DNA of 64,000 nt from Metallosphaera tengchongensis (lineage in GTDB: Archaea > Thermoproteota > Thermoprotei_A > Sulfolobales > Sulfolobaceae). Shown one piece after another: positions 760-12,685 of the stretch (position 1 is the first letter of the stretch; the number at the start of each line of letters is the position of its first letter). Below the pieces are notes generated by a model. It did no database searches. It saw only the letters and a program-made list of their open reading frames with translations, and was not told where the DNA came from. Made by a program: the position numbers and the translations under genes. The DNA lies in contig NZ_CP049074.1 in assembly GCF_013343295.1 (NCBI RefSeq), forward strand, positions 2,089,501 through 2,153,500. Reading direction: 5' to 3'.

Positions 760-1902
760 ATGAGGTCTCTCCTCCCCCTGCTCTTGCTTTTCCTACTCCT
801 CCCCCTGCCCTCTTCCTCATTTTCGCCCACAAACTACGGCTACGAGTTCGGCTACGTCCCCATGGGGGGCATCCAGACGGTCGTGGTCCTTTACAACATC
901 TCCTTAGCCCTTGGTTCCCCGGACATGTCCGTCCAGCAGAACGTTTGCCTTAACGTCGGAGGGCAGGAAGTGTTTGTGCAGAACGTACTCGAGCCACTGA
1001 GCTTGACCGAGTCCGGATGGCAAACAAGCGTTTACTTCAACGGGGCATACAACGAGACCAACTCCAACCTCCAGGGCCACGTCTTCAACCTCACCACCAC
1101 TTGGTACCAACAGGGCAATTTCACCGTAATCAAGTTCTACCTGTCCAACGGGACCTTTAAGGGGGAGAGGACCTACCTCCTCCCGGGTAAGCTCTTAGAC
1201 GTGGTCTTTTCAGGTTACACCACGGGCACAGTGGTAGGCGGCTTCGGTAACGGCATCACAGCCTACTTGGGCGAGGGCTTCAACGTCTCCATGGAGTCCT
1301 TCTACCTGTTCAACGGCACTTGGTACGTACCTCCCATAGCGTGGAGCGGTTGGGTCAACACTGGTGAAAAGGCCGTTGGTGGCTCAGCTTACTACTACGA
1401 CGGTAAGGTGTGGGTAGTGTTCGGGAACTCCACCTCCCCCCAGTTGCTCTACAACGTCAGCGTCGTGGTGGTAGGTAACCAGGTGTACACTTTCCCCAAG
1501 GATAGCCTGTGGGAGGCTGGGGGGAAATACTTCGTCAACTCAACGGACTACGTAGAGGGGGAGGTCCTTAGGCCCGTGGGTACCAACTACTCCTTTACCT
1601 TGGAGAAGAAGTACCAGGTGGAGTGCTCCTGTGTAATGGACGGGGTTAAGGGTAACGCGTTCTACTTGCCCTCCCCTGAGACTGTGTACGTAAGGGAGGG
1701 AGACAGATGCGTCGCGCTCTACGTGAACTCCAGCAGGGCTCTGGGGAACTCCACTGGAGTTGGCAACACCACCAACAGCGGGGTTGGGGGCGCGGTGCCA
1801 CACTCAGGTACAACTTCCCCAATTGACGTGAGCGTGTGGATATGGTCGGCTTTAGTAGTAGCCGCCGTTATTGCAGTGTACTTCCTGATGAGGAAGCGGT
1901 GA
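760..1902 (+). CDS. Thermopsin-like (peptidase A5) secreted, membrane-anchored protein
   Basis: Predicted extracellular protein of 380 aa. It starts with a very hydrophobic signal peptide (residues 1-20, leucine-rich) and ends with a transmembrane helix followed by a basic MRKR tail, so it is probably anchored outside the cell by its C-terminus. About fourteen N-x-S/T sequons suggest heavy N-glycosylation. The central stretch with GGFGNG, a FNGTWYVP segment and then VNTGE resembles the conserved core of thermopsins, acid proteases of Sulfolobales, but the family has few diagnostic residues and a non-peptidase surface protein cannot be excluded. The start at 760 follows from the TATA box. Codons are GC-rich compared with the AT-rich genes downstream. 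It is a single gene with no operon partner. A palindromic unit lies about 95 bp after the stop codon. Confidence 0.6.
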   Translation: MRSLLPLLLLFLLLPLPSSSFSPTNYGYEFGYVPMGGIQTVVVLYNISLALGSPDMSVQQNVCLNVGGQEVFVQNVLEPLSLTESGWQTSVYFNGAYNETNSNLQGHVFNLTTTWYQQGNFTVIKFYLSNGTFKGERTYLLPGKLLDVVFSGYTTGTVVGGFGNGITAYLGEGFNVSMESFYLFNGTWYVPPIAWSGWVNTGEKAVGGSAYYYDGKVWVVFGNSTSPQLLYNVSVVVVGNQVYTFPKDSLWEAGGKYFVNSTDYVEGEVLRPVGTNYSFTLEKKYQVECSCVMDGVKGNAFYLPSPETVYVREGDRCVALYVNSSRALGNSTGVGNTTNSGVGGAVPHSGTTSPIDVSVWIWSALVVAAVIAVYFLMRKR

Positions 1903-1998
1903 TTCTTGGTGTGGACAGCGTTTTCACACGCGAGGGCTTAGAGGTCCTTTCAATGGTGGAGAAATCTACTCTAGAGTGGAATGTGATAAAAGAACGGC

Positions 1999-2031
1999 AA
2001 ACCTCGTCCTTTAGGGCGGGGAGGAAGTCAG
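1999..2031 (+). repeat. Solo palindromic unit upstream of vapB-like gene
   Basis: Order: GGCAAACC, TCGTCC, TTTA, GGGCGGGGAGG, AAGTCAG. The stem pairs GTCC/TTAGGGC imperfectly and the unit ends in GTCAG. No tnpB sequence is attached. It lies about 50 bp before the TATA box of the antitoxin gene. Confidence 0.65.
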
Positions 2032-2080
2032 AAAAGAAAACCCCCGAAAAGACGAGGCCCTCTTCTGTTAGATCGAAAAT

Positions 2081-2090
2081 TTTTATACAT
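2081..2090 (+). promoter_or_regulatory. TATA box of vapB-like gene
   Basis: TTTTATACAT is centred about 24 nt before the ATG at 2109. It is followed by the alternating run ACATACGTAGATACGTAT, which could be an operator for an RHH-type autoregulator (inference). Confidence 0.6.
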
Positions 2091-2108
2091 ACATACGTAG
2101 ATACGTAT

Positions 2109-2375
2109 ATGAAGGTTAAAGTAACGTTATCAATAGACAGTGAGATCTTAAAGAGGGCTAAAGAGATAGCTGTAGAGAGGAATACAACGTTAAGCGACAT
2201 GTTCGAACAGGCCATATCGGAACTTGATGCGTTATCAGCTATTAATTCACTGATGAAAGGTCTGGGCCTGACGCCAAGGTTAATATCATTTGAGGAAATT
2301 TCGAAAAATAAACTAGACCTGAAAGCTAATAGTCTAGTCAGGGAAATGAGAGATGAGCGTCTATCTGGACACTAG
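2109..2375 (+). CDS. vapB: Ribbon-helix-helix antitoxin, VapB-like
   Basis: An 88-aa protein. The N-terminal MKVKVTLSID strand followed by two helices (about residues 12-45) fits a ribbon-helix-helix DNA-binding antitoxin. The charged C-terminal half would wrap the toxin. The frame is open far upstream, but the ATG at 2109 is the only one with a well-placed TATA box. The gene overlaps the PIN-domain gene by 23 bp, which is typical of vapBC pairs, where VapB neutralises the toxin and represses the operon. Here the toxin is truncated, so the antitoxin may be an orphan. A decayed paralogue is seen near 49325-49440. The gene is AT-rich relative to the preceding one. Confidence 0.6.
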   Translation: MKVKVTLSIDSEILKRAKEIAVERNTTLSDMFEQAISELDALSAINSLMKGLGLTPRLISFEEISKNKLDLKANSLVREMRDERLSGH

Positions 2376-2680
2376 TGCAATAATTAAAAGATATTTCGCT
2401 GAGGAAAATAGCGATAAATTGAATGAAATTTTTGAGGGGGCGTGGCTGGGCAAGATAAAGGTCTCCTTCTCTACTTATAATGTAGGAGAAGTGGTCGGAG
2501 TAGTTGAAAGGCTTAAAAATTCATGGAGAGTCGATGAAAAGGTAATGAAAGACGTCCTAGACAAGTTCTTCAATAAGATACTACACTTATTAAGGCTTGG
2601 GACTTTAACGCTGGTCCCGATCTACACTAAGGTTATCTTTAAATCGATACCAATACTAGTAAATACAAAAGTAGGGAAAG
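2353..2680 (+). pseudogene. vapC: VapC-like PIN-domain toxin, 3' truncated
   Basis: The frame begins MSVYLDTSAIIKRYF, the PIN-domain start with metal-binding D6, and E46 lies in a NVGEVV context. PIN toxins are about 130 aa with further acidic residues near the C-terminus. Here the native reading ends around residue 105, where the left end of a tnpB element begins at about 2668, so the last codons (to 2706) are transposon-derived. The third and fourth catalytic acids are missing, so ribonuclease activity is unlikely. Confidence 0.65.
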
Positions 2681-2702
2681 CCTCGCCCTTTAGGGCGGTG
2701 AT
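2668..2702 (+). repeat. Left-end hairpin of tnpB element B1
   Basis: Order: AAAAGTAGGGAAAG, CCTCGCCC, TTTA, GGGCGG. It is followed at once by a TATA-like GTATATAAACC. The same arrangement (TAGGGAAAGCCTC, then a TATA box) is seen on the minus strand at 19655-19690 before another tnpB relic, which identifies it as the element's left end. It cut off the VapC C-terminus. Confidence 0.6.
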
Positions 2703-2819
2703 GTGAAAAGTATATAAACCGCTTTTCTCTCCCTCTTCATTATGAACAGAAGGGGGTAAAAGGAGTGGGAAAGAAATCAGAGCCACCCTCTCTATGAAGA
2801 TTTCCCCCACCGCTCCTCT

Positions 2820-3869
2820 GCTTTCCCTTGTCTCAAACTATGAGAGAGGTCTACGTTTCGTTTTAGGTTGGTCAAGGGAGAACAGGCCAAAAAGTTGTTA
2901 AAAGACATACAAAGGTGCTTACGAGACTCTGAGAGAGGAGTTGAACCTACCTCCAAGTTAACTATGGACAGGTTTAGAGATGGCATAGCGGAGTACAAGT
3001 CTGGTTGAAGAACCCTAAACGTGGTAGGCCTAGTGTATGCAAGGCCTCTGTCTGGTTAACGCCAGTACGGTCATATTCTATTGACTTCGACGAGATGGTC
3101 GCGAGGATAGCAGGAGTCGGTAAGTTACTAATACTAGGCTAACCGAGGGACCTGTCTAGGTACAAGGATTGGAAAGTGAGGGAGGTTAAGCTGTTGCCGA
3201 GGGACGGAAAAGCGTTTCTGAAGGTCTCCCTTCTTAACGAGTGGAAAGAACCATGAGCTAAGGATCAAGTAGCTGTAGACGTAAACATAGCTGAGGTAGT
3301 TGTTAGCAAAGATAACGATAAGCACGTCGGTGTCCCGACCCGTTTAGGTGACGCCCATCACTACAAGTCGCCAGTTGAGTGACCACAGAGGAAGTATGAG
3401 AGGAGGTGGAGGGAGAATAGGATCCTTAGCAGGATAAGGTCGTACCATAAAAAGGCTGGGAAAATCTTGGAGGACTCAGCAAGGAAGGTCGGGAAGTGGG
3501 TCGTAAAGGTCGCCAACTCGCTTAACACTTCTGTCATCTTCTTAGACGACTTTAACGACCTCATCAAGGTGAAGGACCTACCATCTAAGTTCAGGGATAA
3601 ACTCTACCTCATGCATTACCGTAGGCTCCAGTACTGGGTTGAGTCGCAAGCTAAAAAAACACGGACTAAAGGTAGTCTACGTAGACCCCCACTACTCCTC
3701 TACTTCATGTCCTAAATGCGGTAAAGAGATGGAGGAAGTAGGACATAGGTACTTCCGCTGTCAGTGTGGTTATGAGGACGACTGCGACGTCATCTCAGTC
3801 ATGAACTTATATGGAGTCCTCTTCCCTCTCGACTGCCCCCACATGAGAGATATAGCCCCGAGCCGATGA
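2820..3869 (+). pseudogene. tnpB: tnpB relic, type B (IS605/OrfB family)
   Basis: Decayed TnpB nuclease gene with several stops and frameshifts. Recognisable pieces in order: an N-terminal part near 2860-3000 (EQAKKLLKDIQRC-like), a middle part near 3200-3370 ending in the conserved DAHHYKS, a helical part at 3400-3640, and a zinc finger near 3700-3790 with CPKCGKEM and RYFRCQCGYE, then VISVMNLYG. TnpB is an RNA-guided endonuclease of IS200/IS605 and IS607 elements. This copy cannot encode a full protein. No transposase (TnpA) accompanies it. Similar relics occur at 18490-19600, 49720-50257 and 57236-57932. Confidence 0.75.
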
Positions 3870-4006: not shown

Positions 4007-5647
4007 TCAACAAGTCTGTAATTTTTCCATCTTGTCTACGAACTCCTCTAGAGGTAGCAATGATATTTTGTTGCCTTCACACACTGCAGGTATAAATATT
4101 CTGAGCTTATTATATATTTTATACTTCCCTATTATACCATTCAAATCCAACAGGGCTGGTAAAGGTCTTAAGACTACCCACACCTCATTTGAACATTGCT
4201 CATACTTATTATATGCCTCATCTATCTCGTCTCTAGGCATTTTACCCATGCTCGCCTTAACGTCTACTCCAATTACCTTGCCGTTTTTGTCGTTAAAGTA
4301 GATATCAGGCACTCCACAGTCATGGACCTTTTGTTCCATGTGTATAGAATTAGGGTCTATCTTTAGGTTTTCTAATAAGTGCTTTATCACCACTGGCTTC
4401 ATCTTTCTGTGGTACTCGCCCTCCTGTCCACCTGATGGTGATGACTTATCTAAGTTAGGGTAATTTAATGTGAGCCAGTTTTGCGCATCGTCAAGTATTG
4501 TCGTAAAAGGACTCTTAAAGTTTGCTGGAGCATCATATGACGGGAAGTCAAGCTGTAACCCTGAAGCACCAAAAGCTAGCTTCTGTATCACGTCTTTGTT
4601 AACCTTATAAGTGGAAACTAACTTATGTCTGATCATGTTTGAAAGGTGCTTCAGTACGTCCTCGTCAACAAATATTCTGTTTGGTTTTCCACCTATGTTT
4701 ATTAGATACTGACTGTAGAAACAAGATGGAACTATTTGTATTGAGAATTGATAACCCATAATCTTCGTGAGTAAGTTCTCAATCTGATTAATCAGTTCTT
4801 TACGGTCCTTTACATCGCAGAGAGACTTGTCTACTTTGAACACTCCTGCACTCCCCAATAACGGTATGCTACTCGGGTTTTTCGTAGATATCTCTTGCGG
4901 TTCTACCTTAAATCCGTTGATGAGTGCTATTTCCGTTCCTAAACTTACCAGGGAGTCCTCTATTTTAGGCTTCATTTCGTCATACACAACAATGTTCACT
5001 CCAGAGGCTTTTAACAGGCTTGAGAACTGACTAAGGAAGTCATCGTAGACAGAGCTCTTGATGTAAATGTTCGTCTTTGGCTGGGGAGAGGAAACACTTA
5101 CTTGAAGGTTGGATTGAGTAGCAATTTCTTCCGAGGGCGTAAACTCCAAAGTGTACTTTTCCCTAACTTCGAGGTAGACCTCAGCATCGAGGGGGTTGAG
5201 TATAACTTGTGACGTTGTTGGGAACTGTAAAGGCTGTATCATTTCTACGTTCTTGCTAACTTTAGCTGTTAAGTAGTCTTTTAAGTCAAGCTGTAAGACT
5301 GTTACAGAGAGTGGAGAGGGGAAGTAAAGGGGTGTTATAGCTGTAGTATGCCCCTGCGAGGTAACTGAGGCTGTCAAGTAGTTATCAGTGTGTTGGCTTG
5401 AGACGCCTACTACTGGAGGGCCAGGGAACAACAGGGTTTTGATCACAGTCTTCCTCAACCGGGATTTGGGCTCCTCAACGTTAGCTGGGGCTTTCATTAT
5501 AGATGGCGGAGGAGACATAACGCTTCTGTTTTCAACCTTAATTTGAGGGGGAGTCTCCACTATATCCTCGACGTCCCCCTTAGCCTCAGTGTAATAGCTT
5601 CTACTTTCCTCAGCGGTTAAGTTTTTCTTCTCCTCTTTCTTTTCCAC
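4007..5647 (-). CDS. Unknown protein with C-terminal PD-(D/E)XK-like nuclease motif
   Basis: A 546-aa protein, second gene of a two-gene operon. I do not recognise the family. The first ~65 residues are charged and Pro-rich, probably disordered. Residues ~70-400 show no known motif. Near the C-terminus are E438, then GVPDI (P447, D448), 13 residues, then GVDVKAS (D462-V463-K464), which is the signature spacing of PD-(D/E)XK restriction-like nucleases. A strand-rich tail follows (EVWVVLRPL). The motif also occurs in Holliday-junction resolvases and in defence nucleases. The gene starts 12 bp after the upstream stop codon, with GGTGAT as a possible Shine-Dalgarno site. It is AT-rich and flanked on both sides by tnpB relics, consistent with acquisition. 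A cytoplasmic DNA-acting role is inferred, not shown. Confidence 0.55.
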   Translation of the reverse strand: MEKKEEKKNLTAEESRSYYTEAKGDVEDIVETPPQIKVENRSVMSPPPSIMKAPANVEEPKSRLRKTVIKTLLFPGPPVVGVSSQHTDNYLTASVTSQGHTTAITPLYFPSPLSVTVLQLDLKDYLTAKVSKNVEMIQPLQFPTTSQVILNPLDAEVYLEVREKYTLEFTPSEEIATQSNLQVSVSSPQPKTNIYIKSSVYDDFLSQFSSLLKASGVNIVVYDEMKPKIEDSLVSLGTEIALINGFKVEPQEISTKNPSSIPLLGSAGVFKVDKSLCDVKDRKELINQIENLLTKIMGYQFSIQIVPSCFYSQYLINIGGKPNRIFVDEDVLKHLSNMIRHKLVSTYKVNKDVIQKLAFGASGLQLDFPSYDAPANFKSPFTTILDDAQNWLTLNYPNLDKSSPSGGQEGEYHRKMKPVVIKHLLENLKIDPNSIHMEQKVHDCGVPDIYFNDKNGKVIGVDVKASMGKMPRDEIDEAYNKYEQCSNEVWVVLRPLPALLDLNGIIGKYKIYNKLRIFIPAVCEGNKISLLPLEEFVDKMEKLQTC

Positions 5648-5659
5648 TATATCATCACC

Positions 5660-6814
5660 TTACGTATTGACTTCACGTTTTGGCCTTAACCATACTACAT
5701 AGTCACTGTATTTTTCGATTTCTAGATCATAATAGAGTAAGAGGGGGATTGAAAACTCTTCAAACATTTCTATAAGGGCGTATTCCCTACTTCTATATTT
5801 ATAATAGCCAGGGCTATAGGTGTTATCACACGTTACTGTTGATGGGAGATTTGATATTGGTATTACACATTTAATTGAGCCCCACCAAGAGAAATCTAGT
5901 ACTTCGCCCAAAGTCGTTGACGTAAGGTAGCTACTGAGTAAAGACTTGTAGTCGCTCGCTATATCTCGATCCATCCTTATAAATTCTGGTTTAAATTTGT
6001 GTAAAAAGTCGTACACCATTTTTTCAAGCTCAGTAATGTAGCGACCTAAAGAGTTATTTGCGTACCCAAAAATTGCATATTTTTCATCTCTTAAGAAGTC
6101 CGCTAGACGAACTACCCCGAACCTCCTGAAAACCCTATCCCTGACGTTCTCGTTATTAAGCTTACCGTAAGCCTCTAAAAACGCCTTAAACGTGTCGCCA
6201 GTTAGGGAAGTTATAAAGAATGTCCTTGGATTATAGACCGACGAAAAGTTAACCAAAGACTCAAATAGCTCTTTAAATGTATTTAAAACTCTATCTAAAT
6301 CACCTAGGGAAACGTTTTCTACTTCCCTAGATGGAGTGAAGCCACTAGAGATTATGGTTCTCCTAGCCAAATCGTTCATATCTTTAACGTAATCTCTTAT
6401 TGATTTATGAGAAGATCCCACCTTAATTGGTTCCGTTACCATTAGCCTAATGGAAATTGGAGTATTTAGCTGAAGGGATTGTAGATAAGCATTATAATCC
6501 ATTCTTAAGCCAAAAATATCAGCATAAAACTCTGCACTACTGTTTCTTGTGTAGGCAAAGGACCCATCTTCTTCTCTTATAACTCCCCCTAGAAGTATCC
6601 TCTTCAGATTACCGTCTAGCTTATCATAAGTTGAGTTAGCATACCTCTCAGCCTGCTGAAATAAGTTGAGGACCTTTGACGTGACGTTATAAACCCTCAT
6701 TATGTCCTCTCTTATATATCGATCCCAAGTTTCGGGCGAGGCATAGTCTATGTCAACTAGGTCAGCACACATATTTACAATATTTTGTTTAGAATATAAA
6801 AATCTTTCGATCAA
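5660..6814 (-). CDS. Unknown 384-aa protein, first gene of operon with nuclease-like partner
   Basis: The 384-aa product matches no family I can name. It is soluble, with no signal peptide or membrane helix, rich in Tyr, Arg and Asp, and appears mostly helical from residue 40 to 300. The tail has a hydrophobic segment (SIPLLLYYDLEIEKY). A TATA-like TTTTTAAAA on the minus strand lies about 30 nt before the ATG, and a 12-bp gap to the next gene indicates co-transcription with the PD-(D/E)XK-like protein. Two genes of this size, alone between transposon relics, would suit a defence or mobile-element module, but there is no direct evidence. Could also be a plasmid- or virus-derived pair. Confidence 0.5.
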   Translation of the reverse strand: MIERFLYSKQNIVNMCADLVDIDYASPETWDRYIREDIMRVYNVTSKVLNLFQQAERYANSTYDKLDGNLKRILLGGVIREEDGSFAYTRNSSAEFYADIFGLRMDYNAYLQSLQLNTPISIRLMVTEPIKVGSSHKSIRDYVKDMNDLARRTIISSGFTPSREVENVSLGDLDRVLNTFKELFESLVNFSSVYNPRTFFITSLTGDTFKAFLEAYGKLNNENVRDRVFRRFGVVRLADFLRDEKYAIFGYANNSLGRYITELEKMVYDFLHKFKPEFIRMDRDIASDYKSLLSSYLTSTTLGEVLDFSWWGSIKCVIPISNLPSTVTCDNTYSPGYYKYRSREYALIEMFEEFSIPLLLYYDLEIEKYSDYVVWLRPKREVNT

Positions 6815-7359: not shown

Positions 7360-7539
7360 ACTCAGGCCCGTACTATATTGATAACATACTAAATCGATGT
7401 AAGATATGCCTTTCGCTTGATTTCTAGCAACTTTTTTCATTTACTAATATTTGAAAGTTCTTTTCTTCAGCCTCCTTCATCAAGCTCTCTAAAATCTCAC
7501 CGTCTCTGTGACTAAAGGAAGTGCTTTTACCGGTAAGTT

Positions 7540-8286
7540 AGGCAAGACCGCTATGAAATTGACGAAGAGAAACGTGTGCTCGTCCTTAAGGACTGGAAGA
7601 TGGAGATACCGTTTGCGGGGAGGTTAAGGTGGTCTGTACAAGGTAGGCTAGAGGGTACACATAGACGACAAGTCCTACGCACATATACCGGTCGACGTAG
7701 GTAGGGTTACTACAAAGAAGTCTGGTAAGCCCACGACGGAGTCCCTCATATTCCACGGTGAGAGGGATAAGATACAGATAGAGACACCTAAAGATAACAG
7801 AGTAGCTTCAATTGACTTAGGTATAAACATGTTAGCAACTGTTACCGTAGACGAGGGTGTTGTTCTGTTTTACCGTGGTCCTACCGTAAAGGCGGACTAT
7901 TTCTACTTCCAAAAGGAGGTTGCAGGGCTAGACAGACTAGAGGCTGAGGCAGAGAAAGTCCAGACTGAAGCTAGGGAGGAAGTGTTGAGAGAAAGGGAAG
8001 GACTATTTAAGAAACTAGCTCACTTCAAACATTGGGTATAATACTTCAAGGGTCTATGCCTTTTATAACGTTGTCGTTGAGAGGAAGCCTTAGGGGAGCA
8101 GTTAATTGTCCTTTAGGTCACAAGCTCCACAGTGACGTTAACGGAGCTTTAAACATGATGAAACTGGGGATAAAGAAAGTCATTAACATACTGAAAAAAT
8201 CTCTCTCTTTTCTTGTAACGCCGAACGGAGTAATTGCCATAAAGGGGAGTAACACCTTAGACCTCGGTGGAACCCTCGCCCCTTAG
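7540..8286 (+). pseudogene. tnpB: tnpB relic, type A, with internal deletion
   Basis: Decayed TnpB. The part at 7540-7800 carries the region before the RuvC-like core. At 7805-8037 the frame reads ASIDLGINMLATVTVDEG, containing the first RuvC-type aspartate, and then a Glu/Lys coiled segment. It then jumps to a C-terminal zinc-finger region (NCPLGHKLHSDVNGALN) at 8100-8160, so the central catalytic part is deleted. Copies of the same type, also decayed, are at 9700-10760 and 41203-42562 on the minus strand. The element end follows directly. Confidence 0.7.
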
Positions 8287-8303
8287 GGTGGGAAGGAGGT
8301 CAG
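8272..8303 (+). repeat. Right-end hairpin of tnpB element A1
   Basis: Order: ACCCTCGCCCC, TTA, GGGTGGGAAGG, AGGTCAG. It lies immediately before the TATA-like sequence of the endoglucanase gene. The preceding CACCTTAGACCTCGGTGGA also precedes the hairpin at 63818, so that copy is a solo right end of the same element type. Confidence 0.65.
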
Positions 8304-8304
8304 A

Positions 8305-8311
8305 CTTATTA
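8305..8311 (+). promoter_or_regulatory. Probable TATA box of endoglucanase gene
   Basis: CTTATTA is centred 26 nt before the GTG start at 8334. It directly abuts the GTCAG end of the transposon hairpin, so the region upstream of the core promoter is transposon-derived. Confidence 0.5.
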
Positions 8312-11072: not shown

Positions 11073-12326
11073 TTATTTTTTCAAAAACTTTTTTTCAAAA
11101 TCATTGAAATAGTCATCCTTTGTATAACCGATAATTATCCTACGTCTCAGTGATGGCACGTTAACGTATTTACTGGCATTGGTATTACTTAAATTGATCT
11201 CTCCGTTACCGATCGAAAGTTTAACTTTATCTATGGGCATATCAACGTCCGCTATGTAGACCAATAAGTTGCCTTTTAAAGTGATTATAAAATTGTACAA
11301 CTTCTCTTCCTCCTCTTTATTCTCCATAGTACTAGCAAATGTATCGGCATGGGTGTCTTCAAGGATGAATTTCTTATATTTTTTCCTCTTCAGTAATATA
11401 TCATAAAAATTCTTATAAATTCCATCTTGGTCTTTTTTCTCTCTCAGCTTACTTAGGACGTAATCGTCAGTTAAATTAAAAAATTTTTCACAGTCCTTCA
11501 CGCCTTCAACAGGTATTGTCTGATCTTCAATCATATTCGCTAAAGTATAGGCAAGAGCTGTGTCAAAAATGCCCTTGACCGGATGGTTATATACAGCGCT
11601 GTACATGTGATACCTCGCCATTAAGAGGTGCTCCAGGTCGTCTCTCCCCTTTGTCCGGAACACGTAATTCCCATTTCTATCGATTTCCATAACTTCAATA
11701 ATTCTATCTAGAGAGATCTCTCCGTATTTGACGCCAAAATAATAAGAGTCCCTTTGCAAATAATCCAGCCTGTCCGCGTCCAAGGTAGAGCTGATTACAG
11801 CCTTTACCAACTGTTTAGATGCTTCTTTTTTAACGTAAATCTCCTCCATTAGCTTAGCCAGTCCTTCCTCCCCAACGCAATTTCTAAGGACATTAACTCC
11901 TATTAATTCGTGAAATTTAGCATTAACTTGATTTCCAATAAAGTCTCTATACATTCTTTCATCAATATATTGAAGGAATTTTAGAGAGTGCTCAAAGGTA
12001 TGAGAGAAGGGCAAATGACCTATATCGTGAACTAAAGCTAACCTGCTAATTTCATTCAGTTGATCATCGTTTACGAAACCGTTCTTTCTCAATTTCTCCA
12101 ACATGAGTTTAGCAACGTGATGTGCACCTAAACTATGCTCAAATCTTGAGTGAGTCGCTGATGGGAAGACTAAATATGCAAGACCGTTTTGTCTAATGTA
12201 TCTCAGCCTCTGAAAAAGGGGACTATCTACTAAGTTTAAATCGCTGGCTTCGACTTTTACATACCCATAAATGGGGTCTCTTATGTGCTTGCCTACTGAC
12301 ATACTATAATACTCATCATTTTTCAC
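11073..12326 (-). CDS. HD-domain phosphohydrolase (dNTPase/SAMHD1-like)
   Basis: A 417-aa protein of the HD superfamily. Metal-binding residues visible: H64 in RFEHSLG, H100-D101 in LALVHDIGHLPFSH, and an aspartate of the LDADRLDYLQRDS motif (D185/D188). The QRLRYIRQ and FPSATHSRFEHS segments near residues 39-66 are typical of the dGTPase/SAMHD1-like branch, enzymes that hydrolyse dNTPs or related phosphates. The C-terminal ~150 residues are charged and unassigned. The ATG overlaps the stop codon of the preceding small gene by 4 bp (ATGA), so the two are translationally coupled. Nucleotide hydrolysis could serve housekeeping or antiviral dNTP depletion; the sequence does not decide. The gene is AT-rich and bounded by transposon relics. 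Confidence 0.8.
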   Translation of the reverse strand: MKNDEYYSMSVGKHIRDPIYGYVKVEASDLNLVDSPLFQRLRYIRQNGLAYLVFPSATHSRFEHSLGAHHVAKLMLEKLRKNGFVNDDQLNEISRLALVHDIGHLPFSHTFEHSLKFLQYIDERMYRDFIGNQVNAKFHELIGVNVLRNCVGEEGLAKLMEEIYVKKEASKQLVKAVISSTLDADRLDYLQRDSYYFGVKYGEISLDRIIEVMEIDRNGNYVFRTKGRDDLEHLLMARYHMYSAVYNHPVKGIFDTALAYTLANMIEDQTIPVEGVKDCEKFFNLTDDYVLSKLREKKDQDGIYKNFYDILLKRKKYKKFILEDTHADTFASTMENKEEEEKLYNFIITLKGNLLVYIADVDMPIDKVKLSIGNGEINLSNTNASKYVNVPSLRRRIIIGYTKDDYFNDFEKKFLKK

Positions 12327-12667
12327 TTATATTTTTCTAAGATCTTTATAAGATCTTCCTCATCACGATTAAAATCAACTTTATCACCTGCTAATTTATA
12401 CCAAAGTTTCCTAGCTGTACTCCTAGCTGTATTCTCGATAAATGTTGGATCCGCATTAACGTTAACACATTGATCTCGACTGGAATGGTCAAAATTTCTT
12501 ATGTAGTCCACGTAGTGTACACCGTCATTAGTCGGCTCAAAACCACTTATGTCTTCTCCTCTCTGTGCCGTAATTATAAAAGCTAAAGCGTGGGCCACCT
12601 CTTCAGGATACTCCTTTTTTAAACAATTTATCAGGCTCGTGATCCTAAACCTCTCGAACGTTATCAT
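12323..12667 (-). CDS. Unknown 114-aa protein coupled to HD phosphohydrolase
   Basis: A small soluble protein, mostly helical, starting MITFERFRITSLINC, with no family I recognise. The frame is open from a GTG at 12685, but a minus-strand TATA-like GCATAAAAGC centred near 12696 lies about 29 nt from the ATG at 12667 and too close to the GTG, so 12667 is chosen. It ends in ATGA overlap with the HD gene. It may be a regulatory or structural partner of that enzyme (inference from coupling only). Confidence 0.55.
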   Translation of the reverse strand: MITFERFRITSLINCLKKEYPEEVAHALAFIITAQRGEDISGFEPTNDGVHYVDYIRNFDHSSRDQCVNVNADPTFIENTARSTARKLWYKLAGDKVDFNRDEEDLIKILEKYK

Positions 12668-12685
12668 GAAATAAATATTGGGCAC

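Follow-up and report, generated by a model that had tools for sequence, protein, structure and literature searches.

Genes A and B of the window, the stretch of 64,000 nucleotides analysed here (bases 2089501-2153500 of a single-contig genome of 2.177 Mb), are best explained as a two-subunit nuclease module that is mobile in Sulfolobaceae and probably defensive, with roughly even chances that it serves against viruses or plasmids. It is strongly supported that the two genes belong together and are under selection, and A is likely, with considerable confidence, to be a PD-(D/E)XK-type nuclease. The nuclease superfamily is known; the A-B pair is undescribed in the databases and literature searched. 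Though short of a demonstrated antiviral system, it is a good and testable candidate for a new one.

Organization of the operon

Gene A occupies 4007-5647 on the minus strand, starts with GTG and encodes 546 residues, while B, which leads the operon, lies at 5660-6772 on the same strand, starts with ATG at 6772 and encodes 370 residues. The first-pass annotation had located both reading frames correctly apart from the start of B, which it set at TTG 6814; this is wrong, since the close orthologues of B all begin at MCADLVDIDY-type residues, corresponding to the ATG at 6772. Transcription runs from B to A across an intergenic distance of 12 nt, and a Shine-Dalgarno motif recognizable from the sequence, GGTGAT (5654-5659, minus strand), directly follows the stop codon of B, 6 nt upstream of the GTG of A. 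The earlier description of the pair as promoter-equipped is borne out by a TATA box, TTTTATAT, at 6794-6801 (minus strand; -29 to -22 relative to the ATG of B), and nearly all of the Sulfolobaceae copies inspected have a comparable element before B. As the box lies only 22-29 nt before the ATG, the sequence implies a leaderless message for B. The pair had also been called AT-rich, which is right in direction, however the bias is mild (40.1 % GC versus 43.2 % for the window).

Transposon relics flank the operon on both sides, as the annotation had it. These are a degenerate C-terminal fragment of OrfB/TnpB (IS200/605-type) with a zinc-ribbon motif at approximately 3467-3869 (plus strand), and a degenerate IS element at 7537-8307 (plus strand) with a TnpB-type C-terminus at 8032-8286, of which about 10 copies are found in a congener. 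No repeats were found bounding the pair, and no CRISPR array was found within the window.

Nuclease signature and domains of A

E438, P447-D448 and D462-V463-K464, previously read as a restriction-like nuclease signature, are indeed present in A at these positions. A loose form of the motif (E-x5-25-PD-x8-25-[DE]xK) also occurs in 25 % of random shuffles of A, and its occurrence in one protein is therefore not evidence; what sustains the reading is conservation across the family together with a predicted helix-strand-strand-strand-helix order. When the C-terminal domains of 36 relatives, gathered from whole genomes and sharing 16-63 % identity, were aligned, the only three invariant columns were K417, E438 and D448, with H413 nearly invariant, and the relatives carried (D/E)462-x-(K/E)464, in the order of PD-(D/E)XK enzymes. 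The putative catalytic stretch conserved in these relatives (4256-4423, minus strand) comprises E409-H413-K417, E438, P447-D448 and D462-V463-K464. Motif lines in Sulfolobaceae read ESxxHxxLK, VE, PDIYV and IDxKTS, whereas in A proteins from outside this family the last line is VEVETLYGTG, in which E-x-E replaces D-x-K. This conservation holds across copies in operons and solo copies.

Three parts can be distinguished in the protein, namely a fast-evolving N-terminal region (residues about 1-195) with LxFPxPxxVxVxxLD-like repeats, a middle domain (about 200-395) that appears Rossmann-like, and the putative PD-(D/E)XK-type C-terminal domain (about 400-546). Structure prediction and structure search, which the first-pass annotation had proposed, left the fold unconfirmed. 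AF2 models of A (residues 195-546) and of B were built from an input of two sequences only and are weak. In the model of A, a helix (411-426), three strands (436-441, 447-452 and 458-462) and a further helix (472-485) fit the alpha-beta-beta-beta-alpha-beta order of the nuclease core, however at low confidence, with pLDDT of 60-73 at the motif only and 41 overall, and Foldseek retrieved no match to the model at E<=0.001. EcoT38I, at rank 3 of the Foldseek search with an E-value of 0.04, was set aside as evidence, and matches of the middle domain to AraC-type Rns were judged to be due to chance.

As a conserved E...(P)D...(D/E)-x-K set in consecutive elements is present in the A family, A is placed by this sequence signature in the PD-(D/E)XK superfamily, and in no named family. 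The likeness to the superfamily, of which CoiA_nuc (PF06054) and HSDR_N_2 (PF13588) are weakly matched, extends to a glutamate on helix 1, another at the strand ahead of those that bear D and (D/E)-x-K, which follow one upon the other, and a W/V-rich trailing strand; A differs in its length of 546 residues, with middle and N-terminal parts of its own, and in the E-x-E of its distant class. No significant profile match to A was obtained among curated PD-(D/E)XK families (CoiA_nuc, HSDR_N_2 and others) or in PDB, and a search for the CoiA family across the phylum gave nothing above the cut-off. Single relatives of A give isolated, weak sub-threshold matches to HSDR_N_2, CoiA_nuc and an EC869-like CDI nuclease.

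The partner protein B

B is predicted to be mostly helical with a beta C-terminus and shows no catalytic signature. It had been described as having no known domain, and this applies to A as well, as neither protein has a significant family match in Pfam, PADLOC, PHROGs or PDB (NCBIfam lay outside the search), and neither matches any defence model of PADLOC-DB 2.0.0 at E-values up to 10. Profile matches of B in PDB to F-BAR and designed coiled-coil proteins were rejected as artefacts of helix composition. Tandem B genes are observed at three loci (L208, 5641-7960; L076, 1201-3442; L077, 3547-7032; all minus strand), those of L208 and L076 deriving from two different B clades, which suggests that B forms a heteromer in some lineages.

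Pairing and selection

Co-directional pairs in the order B to A were found at 38 loci across the sampled genomes of Thermoproteota, mostly spaced by -30 to +30 nt; the order A before B was seen at none of the loci compared. Outside the host order (Sulfolobales), all 12 loci with both genes have B followed by A. Tree distances of A and B from 32 pairs are correlated (Mantel r 0.67; none of 5000 permutations as high). Amongst 122 near-complete genomes of the class, B is present in 23 of the 26 with A versus 12 of the 96 without it (Fisher p 4e-13, uncorrected for kinship). As for the three genomes with A and no B, two hold only fragments or a broken A, and the A of the third (L069) is a long variant that is intact. 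The 38 paired loci and correlated histories thus answer in the affirmative the earlier question of whether the pair is conserved together.

The suggestion that the pair is under selection is likewise upheld, as dN/dS against the nearest relative is about 0.27 for A and 0.33 for B, indicating purifying selection. Within A, the N-terminal part (dN/dS about 0.55-0.94) changes more rapidly than the nuclease part (0.23-0.30), and in the related genomes of L063 and L064 the dN/dS of B approaches 0.6-0.9. Such fast-evolving parts would suit a role in recognition.

Operonic and solo copies

Operonic copies in Sulfolobaceae are patchy and often decayed (L057, L058, L060, L062 and L073), and an intact copy of the pair is found at L053. 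At L057, A is intact, whereas a frameshift together with a TGA disrupts B; at L065, A is again intact and B is interrupted by an in-frame TAG. The pair at L082 is also flanked by IS200/605-type relics. On comparison with congeners, the flanks of the pair in the window had IS sequence alone in common, and the empty-site comparison failed. No relatives of A or B were detected in IMG/VR or in phage and plasmid collections.

Solo copies show a different pattern. Solo B occurs throughout an Ignisphaera-like genus, a second genus (f8) and Aeropyrum-like genomes, with surroundings conserved within each genus, and Pyrodictiaceae-like genomes carry solo A and solo B, unlinked, in fixed surroundings. 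The solo B of these four groups falls mostly into separate clades, and the solo clades found in f7/f8/f2 and f9 do not include the operonic copies; four genomes (G109, G110, G162 and G167) contain solo and operonic copies together. The conserved housekeeping surroundings of solo A and B imply a core role for some of its members. The family probably consists of a core branch, itself probably housekeeping, and a patchy operonic branch to which the pair in the window belongs. Homologues in housekeeping contexts, whose consistent occurrence the annotation had named as refuting its reading, are found for the solo clades (Pyrodictiaceae-, Ignisphaera- and Aeropyrum-like), but the operonic copies are patchy and have defence-type neighbours.

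In the f8 genus, solo B adjoins a conserved Cas4-like nuclease with cysteine residues (L149-L151 and L175), which may serve the B family as another nuclease partner. Like the putative nuclease A, this Cas4/RecB-like nuclease (PF12705) is of the PD-(D/E)XK type and has a B-family gene next to its own; it differs in its length of about 210 residues and its cysteines, and is not a full-length homologue of A. When A is aligned with the Cas4-like profile, D448 and D462-x-K464 fall in register, but the match does not reach significance. The distance from B to a NucS-like nuclease gene further downstream is 317 nt at L075.

Genomic neighbourhoods and known systems

Among 133 proteins neighbouring module loci, 326 PADLOC models were matched, versus 19 where the 120 proteins around solo core copies were compared. 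The contrast is no more than suggestive, as it sets accessory against conserved regions unmatched for genome variability and a single protein may be matched by many models. Matches at module loci include Csm3, Csx1, CARF-PIN, a type I specificity subunit and AriA-like ATPases, and Csm, type I restriction-modification and HEPN/MNT genes lie near some operonic loci.

In a few relatives, the genes appear to be joined to further components. At the Ignisphaera-like locus L068, a 958-residue GHKL ATPase with a NOV_C domain, matching models of the defence protein Tiamat (TmtA), itself a GHKL ATPase, begins 1 nt past A; this likeness to Tiamat is seen at one of the 38 pair loci and is absent from the window. 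One strand of L208 encodes, in a row, a STAND-like ATPase, B twice over, A, an Ntn hydrolase that resembles proteasome subunits, and a conserved protein of small size. Most pairs, including that in the window, are without a sensor ATPase. The Ntn hydrolase (about 270 residues; sub-threshold match to Pfam Proteasome) flanks A at L208 (2944-3762, minus), L205 (11912-12733, plus), L081 (6090-6884, plus), L069 (10591-11406, minus) and L233 (6627-7097, minus). Its family is found in 10 of the 211 genomes of the host order and elsewhere usually occurs without the pair. It was rejected as an obligatory partner: it lies beside the module at at least five loci, is absent from the host genome, and in 7 of the 10 carrier genomes of the order has no adjacent module on the stretch read.

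Multi-gene nuclease systems of defence such as Gabija and Septu combine a nuclease with an obligatory partner in one operon and are patchily distributed. The A-B pair shares this nuclease-and-partner arrangement and patchy spread, however no ATPase or helicase domain is recognized in either protein and neither matches PADLOC. The operon encodes no methyltransferase such as would accompany the nuclease of a restriction-modification system, and literature searches gave no description of the pair.

Possible function and alternative explanations

In the explanation we favour, A would be a metal-dependent endonuclease and B its recognition or activating subunit, with B and the variable N-terminal region of A deciding when or on what A acts. 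The operon of Sulfolobaceae, that of the host genome included, would be an accessory, horizontally exchanged module among IS relics, which most likely cuts DNA (or RNA) to counter viruses or plasmids. The guess of a defence role in the first-pass annotation is favoured by the patchy spread, the decay, the defence-type neighbours and the fast-evolving parts, and weakened by the solo clades of A and B in housekeeping neighbourhoods. The pair may further be an effector cassette attachable to different sensors, and its joining in relatives to a GHKL/Tiamat-like or STAND-like ATPase or a proteasome-like hydrolase is what would be expected of such a cassette. In its fullest and more tentative form, which we rate as possible but short of an even chance, B-A would be an innate immune effector cassette, apparently confined to Thermoproteota, in which the helical partner gates the nuclease, used alone in Sulfolobaceae and elsewhere with interchangeable ATPase sensors or a proteasome-like protease, and either arising from a core nuclease complex of crenarchaea or feeding into it.

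Rather unlikely, though to be taken seriously, is the explanation that A and B are proteins of DNA repair or chromosome maintenance, the operonic copies being accessory paralogues of a housekeeping nuclease complex with no role in immunity. Solo B and solo A in the fixed surroundings described above argue for it, and there is a precedent in an archaeal OLD-family ATPase, of a family known from bacterial defence, which a recent study found to serve the cell cycle, apparently with no part in defence (PMC12796447). Since the solo copies lie in housekeeping neighbourhoods, the original role of the family may indeed have been other than defence, but the operonic copies fall outside the solo clades of f7/f8/f2 and f9, are patchy and decayed in several genomes, and lie near IS elements and Csm, type I restriction-modification and HEPN/MNT genes. 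That A should be a structural or regulatory protein without nuclease function, resembling PD-(D/E)XK enzymes by coincidence, is quite improbable. The frequency of the loose motif in shuffles, the want of a significant curated family and the low-confidence models would permit this, however the positions that never vary within the domain are those of the motif itself, with the expected spacing and strand order, and they are kept between the operonic and solo classes.

A toxin-antitoxin module, with A as toxic nuclease and B as antitoxin, would agree with a two-gene operon led by the putative antitoxin, a mobile distribution and other toxin-antitoxin genes nearby. We consider it improbable, as two independent lineages (L057 and L065) retain A intact beside a broken B, a state that should not be tolerated were A a free toxin, an intact A occurs without detectable B at L069, solo B copies exist without A, and both proteins are large for such modules. 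Intact A beside broken B in two lineages instead points to B activating or directing A, and B is probably an activator or guide rather than an antitoxin. Very improbable is that the pair is cargo serving a virus, plasmid or transposon: IS200/605-type relics do flank it here and at L082, but bounding repeats and relatives in viral, phage or plasmid collections were not found, and the relatives are chromosomal in many families.

A survey detected little non-CRISPR defence in Thermoproteota (PMC12988326). With A/B genes in about 20-30 % of the near-complete genomes of the class, the module that we favour is a testable candidate for part of this gap.

Other genes near the pair

A small family of proteins starting with MPSW..H, which has an HD-like signature and no Pfam family, adjoins the pair at four loci (L203, 10442-11251; L204, 6393-7454; L208, 2275-2805; L159, 12193-13107). 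In the window, 11073-12326 (minus strand) encodes a SAMHD1-type HD phosphohydrolase with HD_assoc_2, for which PADLOC has a dGTPase model, and overlaps the gene of a 120-residue protein of no known family at 12323-12685 (minus strand). The two recur together at L073, near remnants of A and type III CRISPR genes, and the phosphohydrolase cluster is also found near B at L075. On the other side of the operon, an RHH/DUF6364 protein followed by a short ORF with a sub-threshold PIN domain (1836-2706, plus strand) is probably a truncated VapBC-type pair.
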